From Exiguobacterium sp. J17977 (GTDB lineage: Bacteria > Bacillota > Bacilli > Exiguobacteriales > Exiguobacteriaceae), in the NCBI RefSeq assembly GCF_018616375.1, contig NZ_JAEQBB010000002.1:248001-312000 (forward strand): a stretch of DNA of 64,000 nt. Direction: 5' to 3'. This document shows, one piece after another, positions 37,432 through 43,583 of the stretch (position 1 is the first letter of the stretch; each line of letters opens with the position of its first letter). The position numbers were made by a program, and so were the translations under genes. The notes under the pieces were generated by a model. That model saw only the letters and a program-made list of their open reading frames with translations. It was not told the origin of the DNA and did no database searches.

Positions 37432-40242
37432 TTATCTCTGATTTCCTAGGCCGGTCTTCTCTTTCTCGTCTAAAAACAGCTCCAGTTCGGCGAGTGCGGT
37501 CTCGAGCGGACCGTCGATTCGGTCGACGGCCGGCAAACTGTTGATGAACTGCTTGCCATAACGGGTCGTCTCGACACGACGATCGAAGACGAAGATGGCG
37601 CCGTAATCCTCTTTCGAGCGAATCAGACGGCCGACCCCTTGTTTGAAGCGGATGACCGCTTGCGGGAGTGACAGCTCAAAGAATGATGATTTGCCGGTCG
37701 CCTCAATTTTCTCGGACCGCGCCTGCATGACCGGTTGGTCGGGCGGGGCGAACGGGAGGCGGACGATGATGAGGCAAGTGAGTGCCTCACCCGGAATGTC
37801 GATGCCCTCCCAGAAGCTGGCCGTTCCGAACAAAATCGCTTGGTCAATGCGCTTGAACTGTTTCGTCAATCGGCTGCGTGACCCGCCGCTGACACCTTGG
37901 GCGAGGAGTGTATAGCCCTCATCGAGCTGGTCTTTGACGGCCTCATGGGTCAATCGCAACAGTTCGTTCGATGTGAACAAGACGAGCATCCGCCCTTTCG
38001 TCACATTGGCGATTTGAGCGATCGAGTCCGCGATTTGTTCGACGAACCGTGGCAACGGAACTTCGTTGATGAGCGGGATGTCGGATGGTACGAACAGTTT
38101 CGCTTGTTTCTTGAAATCAAACGGTGACGCCAGGACGACGCGACGGACATCTTCGCCGTCGAGTCCGAGACGGCGTTCGATGAATCCGAATCGGCCTGAA
38201 ACGGTCATCGTCGCCGACGTCAAGACGGTCGGACGCTTGGCGAACAATCGTTCATGCAAGAGTGGACCGATTTCGACCGGTTGCGTATATACCGAGGTCA
38301 ACTTACGGTTGGCCAGGTTGAGTTCGACCCAACTGACGGCATCGTCATCCCGCGTGAGCATCGTCTCGTAGAGCACGCTCTCGATATCGCGCACGTCCCC
38401 GATGAACGCCTTCAAATCGCCGAGCACGGCCCGTTGTTTGAACGTCATATGTTCTTTATGCTCATCGAGGAGGCGATGGAGTTGCCGGAGCGTCGTCCGC
38501 AGCGTCCGCAGACGGTCTTCCAATCGCTTCGCCACTTCCCGAATCGGACGGAACGGCTCCCCTTCCCGCTCGAAGCGGACGGTTTGACGTTGCTCCCGTT
38601 TTTTCCCGAGTGACTGGAGCGCCGTGAGCAAATCGTTCAGCTCATCGTCGACGCGGGCGAGCGCTTGATCGGTCGCCTTGCTGAACGCCTCGGCTTCTTC
38701 TGAGACGGCCGTCAAATCAGCGAGTCCGAGCACGCGTGAATGGAACTTGCCATCGGCACCGTAACCGAACCACTTGAACAAGCGGTCGAACTGAATCGCG
38801 TCGAACGTCACACCGAAGTGATGCGACGCGACTTCCTCGACTTGATGGGCCTCATCTAAGATGAGCGGCGTATCGGTCGGAAGAATCCCGGCCTGATGCT
38901 GCAAATCGGAGAACAATAAAGCGTGGTTCGTCACGATGATATCGGCCTCTTTCGAGCGCAAAACGGCCCGGGTGAAGAAGTCTCGGCTATACCATGGGTC
39001 GAAGCGGCCAAAGTCCGAGGCCGCGTCTGCTTGGATAAGCCGTTTGAACGAGGCCGGCCCTTGTGACGCCGCGCCCGGTAACGACAACTCTTCCAAGTCG
39101 CCCGTCTCCGTCTCGGTCAACCAGACGAGCACCATCGCTTTGCACATCGCTGGGAGTAAGCCTTCGTTCGCCTCCTCAAGAATCATCTCGAACTTGCGGA
39201 GGTCGATGTAATTGCGTCTCCCTTTCAACAACGTGAACTCGACTTCAGGGAAAATCGCTTTTAAAATCGGCAAATCTCGAGTCAACAGCTGTTCCTGCAA
39301 TTGAATCGTATGTGTGCTGACGACGACCGGACGTTTCGTCTCGAGCGCATGATGGGCGCTCGGAATCAAATATGCCAACGTTTTTCCGGTCCCTGTCCCC
39401 GCCTCGACCAATAGCGTTGCTTCGTCATCGAGCGCCTTATAGACGTGGCGCATCATCTCGAACTGGCTCTGTCGCGGCTCGAATTGGCCGAACAGTGCCG
39501 GAAGCGTCTCTTCAATCGTCCGGTGAAGGAACGGCTCGAACGGCTCGCGCTCGACGGCGGGCTCGAACGTGTCGACGAGACGTCTTAGTGCGATTTTCCG
39601 ATGAATATCGTACGTCGTCTCATCGTCGGCCCGGATCCCGACTTGAATGATCAACTCATCGAGCAGCGGCTCGACGTTGCTCGTCCACGACTCGGACAAC
39701 CGCCGTAATTGTTTCAGCGTGACGAGTGGTAACGCGCGCAACCGCTCGACCAAACGAACGAACAGCTCCGCTGTCGCCTCGGCATCACTGAGCGCGCGGT
39801 GCGCGTCGGTGTGGACGAGGTTGAACGTCTCGGCGAGCGACTCGAGCGCGTGGCTCTCGAGCGTCGGGTATAGAATCCGTGCCAGCTCGACCGTGTCGAT
39901 GGCCCGTCCCTGGAACGGGATATACCCGGCCAACTCTAAGCTTTCATTCAAAAAATTCAAATCGAACGATACGTTGTGGGCGACAAAAATCCGCCCGTCT
40001 AGCATCTTCCATATATCAGGGATCACTTCCTCAAACGTCGGGGCTTCCGCCACGTCTTGATTCGTGATCGTCGTCAACTGCGTGATAAAAGGCGGGATTG
40101 GGCGACTCGGGCGAATCAAGGTACTGTAGCGCTCTATCACTTCACTCCCTTGAACGACCACCGCCGCAAATTCAATCAATTCGTCGCCGGACTTGACGGA
40201 ATGACCAGTCGTCTCCAAATCCACTATCACATAGGTGTCCAT
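37432..40242 (-). CDS. dinG: DinG-type protein with DnaQ exonuclease and XPD-like helicase domains
   Basis: About 936 residues. The N-terminal ~190 form a DEDDh exonuclease: VDLETTG, FVAHNVSFDLNFL and HRALSDAEATAEL. The rest is an XPD/DinG-like superfamily 2 module with Walker A EAGTGTGKTLAYLIP, LILDEAHQVEE and GVGRLIRSKEDYG. The four cysteines of an iron-sulfur cluster between Walker A and DEAH are not seen (one Cys only), as in S. aureus/B. subtilis DinG, where exonuclease rather than helicase activity was reported. The ATG at 40242 puts the exonuclease motif at the usual distance from the start. Confidence 0.92.
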   Translation of the reverse strand: MDTYVIVDLETTGHSVKSGDELIEFAAVVVQGSEVIERYSTLIRPSRPIPPFITQLTTITNQDVAEAPTFEEVIPDIWKMLDGRIFVAHNVSFDLNFLNESLELAGYIPFQGRAIDTVELARILYPTLESHALESLAETFNLVHTDAHRALSDAEATAELFVRLVERLRALPLVTLKQLRRLSESWTSNVEPLLDELIIQVGIRADDETTYDIHRKIALRRLVDTFEPAVEREPFEPFLHRTIEETLPALFGQFEPRQSQFEMMRHVYKALDDEATLLVEAGTGTGKTLAYLIPSAHHALETKRPVVVSTHTIQLQEQLLTRDLPILKAIFPEVEFTLLKGRRNYIDLRKFEMILEEANEGLLPAMCKAMVLVWLTETETGDLEELSLPGAASQGPASFKRLIQADAASDFGRFDPWYSRDFFTRAVLRSKEADIIVTNHALLFSDLQHQAGILPTDTPLILDEAHQVEEVASHHFGVTFDAIQFDRLFKWFGYGADGKFHSRVLGLADLTAVSEEAEAFSKATDQALARVDDELNDLLTALQSLGKKREQRQTVRFEREGEPFRPIREVAKRLEDRLRTLRTTLRQLHRLLDEHKEHMTFKQRAVLGDLKAFIGDVRDIESVLYETMLTRDDDAVSWVELNLANRKLTSVYTQPVEIGPLLHERLFAKRPTVLTSATMTVSGRFGFIERRLGLDGEDVRRVVLASPFDFKKQAKLFVPSDIPLINEVPLPRFVEQIADSIAQIANVTKGRMLVLFTSNELLRLTHEAVKDQLDEGYTLLAQGVSGGSRSRLTKQFKRIDQAILFGTASFWEGIDIPGEALTCLIIVRLPFAPPDQPVMQARSEKIEATGKSSFFELSLPQAVIRFKQGVGRLIRSKEDYGAIFVFDRRVETTRYGKQFINSLPAVDRIDGPLETALAELELFLDEKEKTGLGNQR

Positions 40243-40309
40243 AACATCCATCCCATCTTCGGCACGCTCGTGCTTTCTGTCTGTCTCATCTTACCATAGA
40301 ACGATACAC

Positions 40310-40349: not shown

Positions 40350-40733
40350 TTATAAAATCGTATGGGCGATCTCTTCATATAGAAGTTGATCGATCTCGTT
40401 TCGCTCGTTCAACACGGCGACTTTCGGACGATGTTGCTTCGCTTCTTCGGCCGTCATTTGACCGTATGCCATGATGATGACGACGTCGCCGACTTGGAAG
40501 TGACGGGCCGCAGCACCGTTCAAACAGACGACGCCTGAACCCCGTTCGCCTTTGATGACGTACGTCTCGATGCGAGCGCCGTTATGGTTGTTCGTGATGT
40601 GGACATGCTCGTTTTCCATGATCCCGACCGCATCCATTAAATCTTCATCGATCGTGATCGAACCGACGTAATGCAAGTTCGCCTCTGTGACGGTCGCCTT
40701 GTGTAGTTTTGCGTGCATAAATGTTCGAATCAT
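40350..40733 (-). CDS. panD: Aspartate 1-decarboxylase PanD
   Basis: Pyruvoyl enzyme making beta-alanine for pantothenate. From the ATG at 40733 the product is 127 residues and the self-cleavage site Gly24-Ser25 (HYVGSITID) is at the standard position; conserved [13 protein letters not shown] and [13 protein letters not shown] follow. Two upstream in-frame ATGs lack spacing from the GAGAGG site. It is the last gene of panB-panC-panD, 5 bases after the panC stop. Confidence 0.96.
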
Positions 40734-40738
40734 TGGAT

Positions 40739-41569
40739 TCATCCTCTCTTCCAAATCACATTATCAATCAAGCGGGCCCGTTCGAACTGCACCGCTACAG
40801 CAATCAATAGTTCGGTTGACGCGGAGGTCACCTCGGTCAACGTCGGATAATCTTTGATCTCGACATAGTCGATCGTACTGTTCGGAATGTGCTCCAAGCG
40901 CCCCTCGAGCCGTGCCATCACGTCTCGAATCGCCTCGCCTTGCGCGAGGGCATCTCGCGCCTCGACCAAGGCACGGTTGATGTCACTCGCATCCGCCTGC
41001 TCCGTCTCCGACAGATAGACGTTACGGGACGATTTCGCAAGGCCCGACGGTTCACGGATAATCGCACAGCGCCGAATCTCGACCGGGACGAAATAGTCAC
41101 GGACGTAGCCTTCGATTAAAGCGACTTGTTGCGCATCCTTCAACCCGAAGTAAGCGCGGGTCGGACGGACGAGATTGAACAGTTTCGAGACGACGGTCAA
41201 GACGCCATCGAAATGACCGGGACGACTGGCCCCGCATAAGACGTCAGCGCCGGTGCGCACCGTCACACGTGCCATGTCGAGCGGATACATCGTCTCCGTG
41301 TTCGGATAGAACAAGACGTCGACACCCGCCTCGCGAGCGAGCGCTTCGTCCCGCTCGAAATCACGCGGATAGCGGTCGAGGTCCTCGTTCGGACCGAACT
41401 GGGTCGGGTTGACGAAAATGCTCATGACGACGAAGTCATTTTCCGACTTGGCCGCCTCGACGAGACTGAGGTGCCCTTCATGCAAATAACCCATCGTCGG
41501 GACGAAACCGATCGTTCCGACACCTGTCAATGCCTCCTGTAACGAACGTGGGGTCGTGACGATGTTCAT
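40739..41569 (-). CDS. panC: Pantothenate synthetase PanC
   Basis: Joins pantoate and beta-alanine using ATP. The 276 residues include the HxGH-type motif [12 protein letters not shown] (His30, His33), the [19 protein letters not shown] substrate loop and KDAQQVALI and the KSSRNVYLS (KMSKS-like) motif. The ATG overlaps the panB stop by 4 bases. It uses the products of its two operon partners. Confidence 0.97.
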
Positions 41570-42402
41570 GCCTTGCCCCCGTAGAGCGTGTCGAGTAATG
41601 ACTCATCCATCGTGAACGTGTGCCGTTCGAGCGGGAACGAGCCGTCTTTCGTCGCATCGACATAATTGCGGATCGCCGCCGTCGCCACTTCGTTCACGTC
41701 GGCGTACGCCTCGACGAACTTCGGAAGGCGGTCGACGCCGTATTTCAAGATGTCGTGATAGACGAGCACTTGGCCGTCCACATCGGCACCCGCCCCGATT
41801 CCGATGACCGGGATGGTGAGCGCCTCGGCAATCTTTTTGGCCAACTGATGCGGCACACATTCGAGGACGAGCATTTTCGCACCGACCCGCTCCGCCTCGA
41901 GGCTATCGGCAATCAACTGTTCCGCGTCCTCGAGCGACTTGCCTTGTACTTTATACCCTTCGAGCACACCGACCGACTGCGGGGTAAGGCCAAGGTGGGC
42001 GACGCACGGCATACCGACTTTCGTCAGCCGCTCGATCGTCTCAAGTACCTCGCCAGCCCCTTCAAGTTTAATCGCATCAGCCTGTCCGTCTTGGAACAAC
42101 GTCGCGGCCGCTTGGAGCGTGCGGTCGAAATCACCGTGGTATGTTGCGAACGGCATATCGACGACGACGAACGTGTCTCGTGCCCCACGGCGAACGGCTT
42201 TCGCATGGTGGACCATGTCCGAGATTGTCACCGGAATCGTCGAATCGTAACCGAGCACGACCATCCCGAGCGAATCCCCGACTAAAATGATATCGACGCC
42301 TGCAGCCTCGGCCAGTTTTGCGGACGGATAATCGTAGGCGGTCAACATGACCAATTTCTCTTCTTGTTTCATCTTCTTCAATAACGAAGTCATCGTATGC
42401 AT
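41566..42402 (-). CDS. panB: Ketopantoate hydroxymethyltransferase PanB
   Basis: Transfers a hydroxymethyl group from methylene-tetrahydrofolate to 2-oxoisovalerate. A 278-residue TIM barrel with [18 protein letters not shown], the metal-site [13 protein letters not shown] and IKLEGAGEV. The ATG at 42402 has AGGAGG 8 bases upstream. It is the first gene of panBCD and is preceded by a ~190-base leader with a conserved-looking RNA hairpin and an intrinsic terminator, so expression is probably controlled by attenuation. Confidence 0.97.
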
Positions 42403-42433
42403 ATGCTTCTCCTCCTAATGTGGAGACAGGTTA

Positions 42434-42469
42434 GAAAAAACGCCTTCCTACACGAATGGTAAGAAGGCG
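42434..42469 (-). terminator. Leader terminator (attenuator) of panBCD
   Basis: On the minus strand CGCCTTC-TTAC...GTAG-GAAGGCG (one T-G wobble) is followed by six T residues, 32 bases before the panB start and after the pan promoter. It therefore lies inside the panB leader. An AGAAGG segment earlier in the leader (42504-42499) could pair with its left arm CCTTCT as an antiterminator. Confidence 0.75.
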
Positions 42470-42555
42470 CACGAAAACAATCTCAAGTAGATGAGTGTCC
42501 TTCTGTCCCTGTCAAAATGATCAAGGCAGACAAAAAAATGTAGTGACGGTCTGCA

Positions 42556-42591
42556 GTGCTGGTACACTTCGCGAGCGATAGCGTCCGGCAC
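42556..42591 (-). ncRNA. pan-motif-like RNA hairpin in the panB leader
   Basis: The minus-strand RNA folds as GTGCCGG/CCAGCAC (one C-A mismatch), a bulged A on the 3' side, ACGCT/AGTGT, a bulged A on the 5' side, TCG/CGA, loop CTCG. A hairpin with two bulged adenosines upstream of panB is the definition of the pan RNA motif of Firmicutes, whose ligand is not known. It begins at or near the predicted transcription start. Confidence 0.68.
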
Positions 42592-42595
42592 ATTC

Positions 42596-42624
42596 ATTAT
42601 AGACCACGAATCCGTTTCCATCAA
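42596..42624 (-). promoter_or_regulatory. Sigma-A promoter of panBCD
   Basis: On the minus strand TTGATG (42624-42619), 17 bases, and a perfect TATAAT (42601-42596). The -35 overlaps the birA stop codon. The start of transcription would be at about 42590, the first base of the pan hairpin. Confidence 0.82.
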
Positions 42625-43583
42625 TCATTCCAAACCGCGATCTCGGCCGAGTAAATCGGCTCGACCGTCCCCTCCTGTTCGAGCAGGAGCGCCCCGTCCT
42701 CTGAAATACCGCGCATCGTGCCGCGTCGTGGCTTCCCGGACGCCGTCAACGTCACGGATTCATTCAAATAGGCGGCGTGTTCGAGCCAATGGGCGCGCAC
42801 AGGCCCAAACCCTGACGCGAGGAACAAATCGTACTCCGTCTCGAGCTCAGCGAGCAAGTGGGCGAGCAGTTCGCTTCGCTGATACGTCTGTTTCATTTCA
42901 AGCTTGATGGACGTCGCGCGATGGACCAGCTCGTCCGGGATGACGTCGCTATTGACGTTCAGCCCGAATCCGAGGATGACGGCTTGAATCCGGTCCCCTT
43001 CCGTCTGCATCTCGGTCAAGATACCGCCGATTTTTTTCCCGTTGAGCAACAAATCATTCGGCCATTTGATGTTGGCCGGGATGCCTTGCGCATGCAGGGC
43101 GCGCGCGAACGCGCTCGCCGCCATGAGCGTCAGCTTCGAGGCGTCGCGAATCGGCAGCGCCGGACGCAAGATGACGCTCGCCGCGATATTGACGCGGCTC
43201 GGATTATACCAGTTCCGGCCGAGTTGGCCTCGGCCCGCCGTCTGTTCCTCGCTGATGACGAGCGTGCCTTCAAGGACACCCTTTTGCGCCAATTCATGGG
43301 CGATGCGTTGGGTCGTATCGACTTGCTCATACGCATGGACGACTTGTCCGAATCGCCCTTTCCGGAACGAGACGAACGCCGGTTCATCGAGCCGGTCGGT
43401 CTGGCCGAACAGTTGATACCCTTTTCGCGGGATCGTCTCAATCGCATACCCGTCTTGTTTTAACGTCTCGATATGCTTCCAAATTGCGGTACGTGAAATA
43501 TTTAATTGACGGGCCAACTCTTGACCGCTCCAGACGGCCCCGTCCTGTAACAGGTTCAATACTTTTCCGCGTGTCGAAGCCAT
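42621..43583 (-). CDS. birA: Biotin operon repressor / biotin-protein ligase BirA
   Basis: Attaches biotin to carboxylases and represses biotin genes. The 320 residues begin with a winged helix (SGQELARQLNISRTAIWKHI), then the ligase core with TAGRGQLGRNWYNPS (biotinyl-AMP loop) and IKWPNDLLLNGKKIGGIL (catalytic Lys), and a C-terminal SH3-like domain (ESVTLTASGKPRRGTMRGI). It starts 28 bases inside cca. It contains the DNA-binding domain, so it is the bifunctional type. Confidence 0.96.
   Translation of the reverse strand: MASTRGKVLNLLQDGAVWSGQELARQLNISRTAIWKHIETLKQDGYAIETIPRKGYQLFGQTDRLDEPAFVSFRKGRFGQVVHAYEQVDTTQRIAHELAQKGVLEGTLVISEEQTAGRGQLGRNWYNPSRVNIAASVILRPALPIRDASKLTLMAASAFARALHAQGIPANIKWPNDLLLNGKKIGGILTEMQTEGDRIQAVILGFGLNVNSDVIPDELVHRATSIKLEMKQTYQRSELLAHLLAELETEYDLFLASGFGPVRAHWLEHAAYLNESVTLTASGKPRRGTMRGISEDGALLLEQEGTVEPIYSAEIAVWND

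Follow-up and report, generated by a model that had tools for sequence, protein, structure and literature searches.

In the window, as the whole 64,000-nucleotide stretch of Exiguobacterium sp. J17977 DNA is called here, the interval from birA to panB on the minus strand carries a promoter, a pair of hairpins and an intrinsic terminator. This arrangement raises the question of how, and in response to which signal, the pantothenate genes behind it might be controlled.

The pan RNA and its promoter

The genes, the promoter and the hairpins of the locus were placed as follows:

42621-43583, minus strand: birA, biotin ligase (NCBIfam TIGR00121), directly upstream
42619-42624, minus strand: -35 hexamer TTGATG, overlapping the birA stop codon; read as TTGATG or TTGAAT in all 19 genus loci
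42596-42601, minus strand: -10 hexamer TATAAT; read as TATAAT or TATACT in all 19 genus loci
42561-42587, minus strand: pan hairpin 1 (hp1; pairs 42586-42561), with two bulged A, about 2-3 nt past the predicted +1; built alike in all 100 Bacillota loci
42503-42529, minus strand: pan hairpin 2 (hp2), with two bulged A; pairs invariant in the genus and covarying across Bacillota
41566-42402, minus strand: panB, ketopantoate hydroxymethyltransferase (NCBIfam TIGR00222), ATG at 42402
40739-41569, minus strand: panC, pantoate--beta-alanine ligase (NCBIfam TIGR00018)
40350-40754, minus strand: panD, aspartate 1-decarboxylase (NCBIfam TIGR00223), with a listed TTG start that is provisional
37432-40251, minus strand: dinG (NCBIfam NF005981), the next gene downstream

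The NCBIfam cut-offs were exceeded by panB, panC and panD. The TTGATG-N17-TATAAT promoter proposed in the initial annotation was found, with 10 of 12 consensus matches and a 17-nt spacing between the hexamers that is kept in 19 of 19 genus loci. It was the sole promoter-like site in 42250-42850, for which shuffled sequences give an expectation of 0.4. The putative +1 was placed from the position of the -10 hexamer.

Scoring with the Rfam covariance model, as the initial annotation had suggested, confirmed the pan identity. Positions 42587-42499 (minus strand) gave a full-length match to pan (RF01749; model positions 1-92) of 51.8 bits, against a gathering score of 36.2, with an E value of 4.1e-6, and this was the only RF01749 match at E <= 10 in the whole 2.94-Mb genome. 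The model covers both hairpins, which stand in tandem, 31 nt apart in the window, and are built alike: three pairs, a bulged A on the 3' side, five pairs, a bulged A on the 5' side, at least two pairs and a loop. The hairpin with two bulged adenosines that had been noticed near the predicted +1 is therefore real, at 42586-42561, while its second like, at 42529-42503, had been missed. With two conserved bulged A in the stems of both hairpins, the tandem arrangement and the position upstream of panB-panC-panD, the window element is an ordinary member of the known RNA family pan.

The closest described system is the pan motif itself (Weinberg et al., 2010; PMC2864571), to which the window element corresponds in its tandem hairpins with two bulged A each, its place before panBCD and its occurrence in a Bacilli genome. 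According to the passage devoted to the motif, most, but not all, of these RNAs are tandem. That passage mentions operons of panB, panC and aspartate decarboxylase only, covers three phyla and describes no terminator switch, so that the antiterminator, the uptake and kinase genes and the further phyla presented below are additions to it. Pan RNAs are also listed before panB-panC-panD, in the gene order of the window, in RNA-seq studies of Bacillus methanolicus (PMC4342826) and Paenibacillus riograndensis (PMC5670726), whose relevant passages give no mechanism or ligand. In the literature covered, supplementary files and most subscription papers aside, no ligand, protein or mechanism for pan was found; pan, pantothenate and coenzyme A are all missing from the main text of a paper on attenuators (PMC2965389), and a paper on former orphan riboswitches (PMC7266159) contains no pan term.

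A predicted three-strand switch

Between the hairpins, and between hp2 and panB, the following further features were located:

42549-42554, minus strand: spacer hexamer GCAGAC, able to pair with GUCUGC (42531-42526) at the hp2 base as a possible anti-hp2 helix
42499-42504, minus strand: AGAAGG, the predicted antiterminator strand, made of the last two hp2 bases and the conserved tail
42482-42495, minus strand: small stem CTCA/TGAG between the antiterminator strand and the terminator, in which 86.3% of the cells pair in genus alignment A1
42462-42467, minus strand: CCTTCT, a segment of the terminator 5' arm able to pair with AGAAGG (6 of 6 pairs, as CCUUCU)
42434-42470, minus strand: intrinsic terminator, stem of 12 pairs and T tract, the latter ending 32 nt before the panB ATG

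The intrinsic terminator reported earlier 32 bases before panB was recovered, as a stem at 42470-42440 followed by a T tract. The 601-base region contained two terminator-like sites, where 0.7 (sd 0.9) would be expected.

On these features, the pan RNA at the 5' end of the panBCD transcript probably acts as a feedback transcription attenuator that is OFF when bound by its effector and that follows a signal from the CoA pool. In the OFF state hp1, hp2 and the terminator would all be formed. For the ON state, the hp2 3' strand and its tail (AGAAGG) are predicted to pair with the terminator 5' arm (CCUUCU), and therefore neither hp2 nor the terminator would be completed. An effector bound to both hairpins would keep hp2 closed and lead to termination. 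This direction is predicted from the pairing: hp2 and the antiterminator are mutually exclusive, since the 3' strand of hp2 and the tail are common to both, and OFF is thus expected when the effector stabilizes hp2. The switch foreseen in the initial annotation consequently stands as regards the AGAAGG antiterminator, but it had been drawn between the first hairpin and the terminator; AGAAGG is the 3' end of hp2, and the exchange would be between hp2 and the antiterminator. In attenuators that exchange an antiterminator and a terminator, whether controlled by a riboswitch or by a protein, one strand is common to the sensing hairpin and the antiterminator, and pan resembles them in this respect, its sensor being only putative. 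The predicted switch, made of the hp2 5' strand, the hp2 3' strand with the tail and the terminator arm, is amenable to compensatory mutants.

The predicted energies are compatible with such a choice. For a window transcript ending just past the terminator 5' arm they were -32.6 kcal/mol when folded freely, -32.4 when hp2 was imposed and -31.1 when the antiterminator was, all three values at this decision point lying within 1.5 kcal/mol; these are equilibrium predictions, effector-free and without co-transcriptional kinetics. On the same terms, the minimum for the growing transcript was ON-like at about 120-144 nt and OFF (hp1, hp2 and terminator, -48 kcal/mol) from 150 nt. The pairs of the minimum-energy ON-like fold are partly other than AGAAGG/CCUUCU.

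Conservation in the genus was complete. One pan match above the cut-off was obtained in each of the 19 Exiguobacterium genomes searched, the window's own included, while among 14 control genomes only B. subtilis gave a match. The covariation check suggested for related leaders was run on alignment A1, where 569 of 569 lettered cells of hp1, hp2 and the terminator pair, with no change on both sides of any pair; every lettered cell of the 11 counted terminator pairs is standard-paired in the 19 sequences. AGAAGG and CCUUCU are each invariant in 19 of 19 genomes, and neither the antiterminator nor the anti-hp2 helix varies. The outcome, 100% pairing with no compensatory changes in near-invariant sequences, does not discriminate between explanations, because almost nothing changes within the genus.

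The GCAGAC/GUCUGC helix is likewise present and invariant in 19 of 19 genus genomes. A general anti-hp2 spacer strand was rejected: outside the genus, 3 of 100 Bacillota loci reached p<0.05, which is the chance level. At the site of the small CTCA/TGAG stem, a second clade seems by eye to carry another stem.

Covariation across Bacillota

Pan matches were detected in 152 of 398 sampled Bacillota genomes at E <= 0.001, 139 of them above the cut-off. A set of 100 loci from 87 of the matching genomes was analyzed; most of the weakest matches were left out of it, and the set is therefore biased toward tidy members. Both hairpins, each with its two bulged A, were recognized in every one of the 100 Bacillota and 19 genus loci by a detection that itself demanded these A and no fewer than 8 of the 10 pairs; under a stricter placement rule both were found in 109 of the 119 loci. 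In hp1 (83 distinct rows), 94.9% of the cells are paired, against 72.3% after column shuffling (sd 0.9 points), and both-side changes occur at 10 of 10 pairs. The corresponding values for hp2 (40 distinct rows) are 93.2% and 83.7% (sd 0.9), with both-side changes at 8 of 10 pairs. Both pan hairpins thus covary across the 100 Bacillota loci. Pair 9 of hp2, beside the bulged A, is U-A in 62 and G/A in 30 of these loci; the replacement of U-A by G/A, and not by another standard pair, suggests a non-canonical contact.

A terminator-like hairpin was found within the 125 nt downstream to which the search was confined in 88 of 100 Bacillota loci, the other 12 lacking one by the same criterion, and in 19 of 19 genus loci. 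The tail lies at most 40 nt from the terminator in 77 of the 88. The pairing of the strand at the end of hp2 and in the tail with the terminator 5' arm of the same locus scored 13.76 on average (89 distinct loci). When partners were permuted among loci the score was 12.12 (sd 0.26, maximum 13.01), and none of 5000 permutations reached the true value; shuffling the letters of the strand gave 10.97 (maximum 11.58) and shuffling those of the arm 10.23. When the strand window was slid along the RNA, the score peaked within 2 nt of the tail and dropped to about 9-10 at distances of 7-14 nt on the downstream side and 14-30 nt on the upstream side. A score of at least 12 was attained by 65% of true partners and by 46% of mismatched ones, which also pair fairly well because many loci share the consensus.

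The second position of the strand illustrates its double use. Within hp2, A stands opposite U in 25 of 25 loci and G opposite C in 71 of 73. Against the terminator arm, A meets U in 12 of 15 and never C, and G has C as its partner in 27 of 37 cases and U in 9; these last counts were taken, in the register chosen for best pairing, from the 52 loci (of 89) in which 6 or all 7 antiterminator pairs can form, the other 37 having fewer. After thinning at identity limits of 75, 70, 65 and 62%, to 50, 28, 14 and 9 loci, the true value was reached by 0, 456, 2 and 141 of 5000 permutations, respectively. Support for the antiterminator is therefore good but not uniform, and the claim that AGAAGG pairs with the left arm of the terminator, complementary at 6 of 6 positions in the window, is borne out by the Bacillota covariation, with mixed results once similar loci are thinned. 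As judged from these comparisons, an attenuator mechanism in Bacillota appears well supported.

Two rival readings were also considered. The element might be constitutive, with hairpins that just protect the 5' end and a terminator that sets a fixed readthrough. A hairpin at +1 is a common stabilizer, which would suit this explanation, but the terminator arm and the hp2 tail co-vary in Bacillota, and pan stays linked to one pathway in loci of several phyla; we consider it improbable. Alternatively, AGAAGG could be the Shine-Dalgarno sequence of a short ORF lying over the terminator, with attenuation through a leader peptide. An ATG at +4 to +11 past the tail is present in 27 of 100 Bacillota loci, against 14.4 in shuffled sequences (sd 3.6, maximum 24), and in 7 of 19 genus loci, five of which share a similar peptide (MKTM.LFFVRLLA...). 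The other two genus ATGs are however in another frame, 12 of 19 genus loci, the window included, have no ATG there, the TTG-started frame of the window stops inside the terminator, and the 27 Bacillota peptides look unrelated, many of them being very short. A leader peptide is thus a highly improbable explanation, and as the main mechanism it was set aside, a similar ORF being conserved in only 5 of 19 genus loci. The preferred reading is still the attenuator in which hp2 and the antiterminator compete.

Genes behind the element and a possible signal

The first labeled gene in the 100 Bacillota loci was a DUF2520 panG-like gene in 48, panB in 23, panC in 12, an SBF transporter in 4, a BioY-like gene in 3, an OPT transporter followed by a type II pantothenate kinase in 3, BirA in 2, panD in 1 and an ECF S component in 1, with 3 loci unlabeled. 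Labels were assigned by BLAST against a single seed for each class; Pfam agrees, for the seed or for another member, in all classes except panB, panC and panD, and the type II pantothenate kinase is above its NCBIfam cut-off. In at least six of the panB- or panC-first loci the labeled gene begins 700-900 nt downstream, so that an unlabeled gene is probably first. The element precedes, besides the synthesis genes, SBF/PanS-like, ECF S and OPT transporters and pantothenate kinases of type II or III. The SBF transporter scored 298 bits against the PanS model, below its 400-bit cut-off. Assignment of the ECF S component as PanT was rejected; its substrate is a guess, because only Pfam PF12822 was matched and the NCBIfam match, to a folate family, was sub-threshold.

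By eye, in four loci (L148, L283, L284 and L285) the hp2 tail, GGGAUGGGAGG, resembles the ribosome site of an ECF S-component gene that probably starts at AUA or AUU and not at AUG. In two others (L127 and L282) pan stands before an amidohydrolase-family gene and then CoaX, with BirA in addition in L127. A further locus (L053) is the second pan element of its genome; it has a terminator, and behind it the same strand shows just short ORFs, of which the first encodes 78 aa with CxxC motifs.

PanC was undetected in 13 of the 152 pan-positive genomes. None of these 13 had a detectable match to PanD, and PanB was matched in 5 (in one as a contig-edge fragment) and not in 8. Of the eight genomes without matches to PanB, PanC or PanD, seven have pan above the cut-off, where it is followed by an ECF S component alone (2), ECF S-CoaX (1), BioY-ECF S-CoaX (2), BirA-ECF S-CoaX (1) or OPT-type II kinase (1). 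Since pan stands before transporters and kinases, also in these seven genomes, a signal from the CoA pool is indicated, and with a kinase within the regulon a signal made after the kinase fits more easily. The effector would report the CoA pool either as CoA or a relative acting on the RNA or through a dimeric protein responding to it.

The persistence of pan in genomes without PanB, PanC and PanD makes these proteins unlikely as a general effector. Autogenous control, in which one of them or a pantothenate kinase would bind its own leader, agrees with the position of pan mostly before those genes, but it must account for the seven genomes and also for four pan-positive ones in which no CoaX match was detected, one of these having a type II kinase and none a type I match. 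Although two of the four are only 63 and 82% complete, we regard such control as very unlikely. CoaX presence as such was useless as a predictor of pan, 358 of 398 genomes having CoaX.

The sensor may be a protein or the RNA itself. A dimeric RNA-binding protein, with one hairpin per subunit, could cause termination when CoA or pantothenate is plentiful. The spacer between hp1 and hp2 ranges from 10 to 75 nt in the 100 loci, so no fixed RNA geometry is needed, and the conserved letters are the bulged A, which detection required, and the neighboring pairs. No candidate protein emerged. PanB, PanC and PanD were undetected in the seven pan-bearing genomes, and CoaX in four, two of them 97 and 99% complete. 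Simple tandem hairpins can bind small molecules too, as in guanidine-II (mini-ykkC), for which protein binding was reportedly assumed first and metabolite binding found later; the likeness to pan lies in the tandem hairpins, since sequence and genes differ, and no homology is claimed. All considered, a protein site is a serious possibility that falls a little short of an even chance. It was the suggestion of the discoverers, whose argument was that the structure is simple and mostly in tandem (Weinberg et al., 2010; PMC2864571, passage on pan), and the description of pan as an orphan riboswitch class, adopted in the initial annotation, is accordingly not established.

Direct binding of CoA or a close relative by the RNA seems to us possible but rather unlikely. 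It would suit a regulon of synthesis, uptake and pantothenate kinases of two types, the retention of pan in genomes without detectable panBCD, and the mention of CoA, in passages of two reviews (PMC9971707 and PMC10043782), as a major cofactor lacking a known riboswitch. Few conserved unpaired bases are offered for a selective pocket, however, and pan seems to occur with a single hairpin in other phyla. The coupling of a sensor domain to an expression platform was found, the hp2 3' strand doubling as the antiterminator strand, but this is not decisive for a riboswitch because a protein-controlled attenuator would be expected to have it as well.

Given its wide distribution (152 of 398 sampled Bacillota genomes) and a regulon that, in the loci analyzed, includes uptake and kinase genes, pan is a good place to seek a sensor of CoA levels, be it RNA or protein. 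A more far-reaching conjecture, which we hold to be doubtful, is that pan is the missing natural sensor of the CoA pool: the bulged-A hairpins of this small RNA would read CoA or a post-kinase precursor and switch off pantothenate synthesis, import and phosphorylation together, through attenuation in many of the Bacillota and perhaps, in other loci, through occlusion of the ribosome site, also in organisms that do not synthesize pantothenate.

Finally, an exact-pattern scan of GTDB genomes for hp2 gave at least 120 stretches, 80 of which were analyzed. Among the matches listed, the phyla, as labeled in the records, included Bacillota, Nitrospinota, Hydrogenedentota, Chloroflexota and Acidobacteria, with Deltaproteobacteria, Myxococcales, Binatia, Dadabacteria and Dormiibacterota as further labels. 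A gene labeled as belonging to the pan pathway or its neighbors was among the first ORFs in 74 of the 80 listed. In the non-Bacillota loci, 318 of 5000 permutations reached the true antiterminator score (34 loci with a terminator, of 57 examined). In 18 of the 80 matches listed, hp1 was doubtful (1) or not found (17), and none of these 18 loci reached the gathering score of the Rfam pan model. From these sequences, a single-hairpin form of pan seems to exist in other phyla.

Several minor observations were made on these loci. By eye, in some of the hp1-poor ones, such as L164, a promoter-like sequence stops just before hp2. Ten loci of Nitrospinota or Acidobacteria type (L153, L157, L161, L207, L221, L225, L179, L220, L229 and L219) carry hp2 without a clear hp1, candidates with 9 of 10 hp1 pairs being seen only in L153, L219 and L225, and in the same ten the 5' strand and loop of hp2 appear by eye to encode the last residues of the upstream gene, PLGS, and its stop. 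In loci of Hydrogenedentota type (L156, L166, L168, L189, L190, L196, L205 and L227), GAACCG was noticed by eye before hp2 and its complement CGGTTC after it, the latter usually beside the purine-rich ribosome site of the first gene, and this pair is perhaps a different, translational platform.
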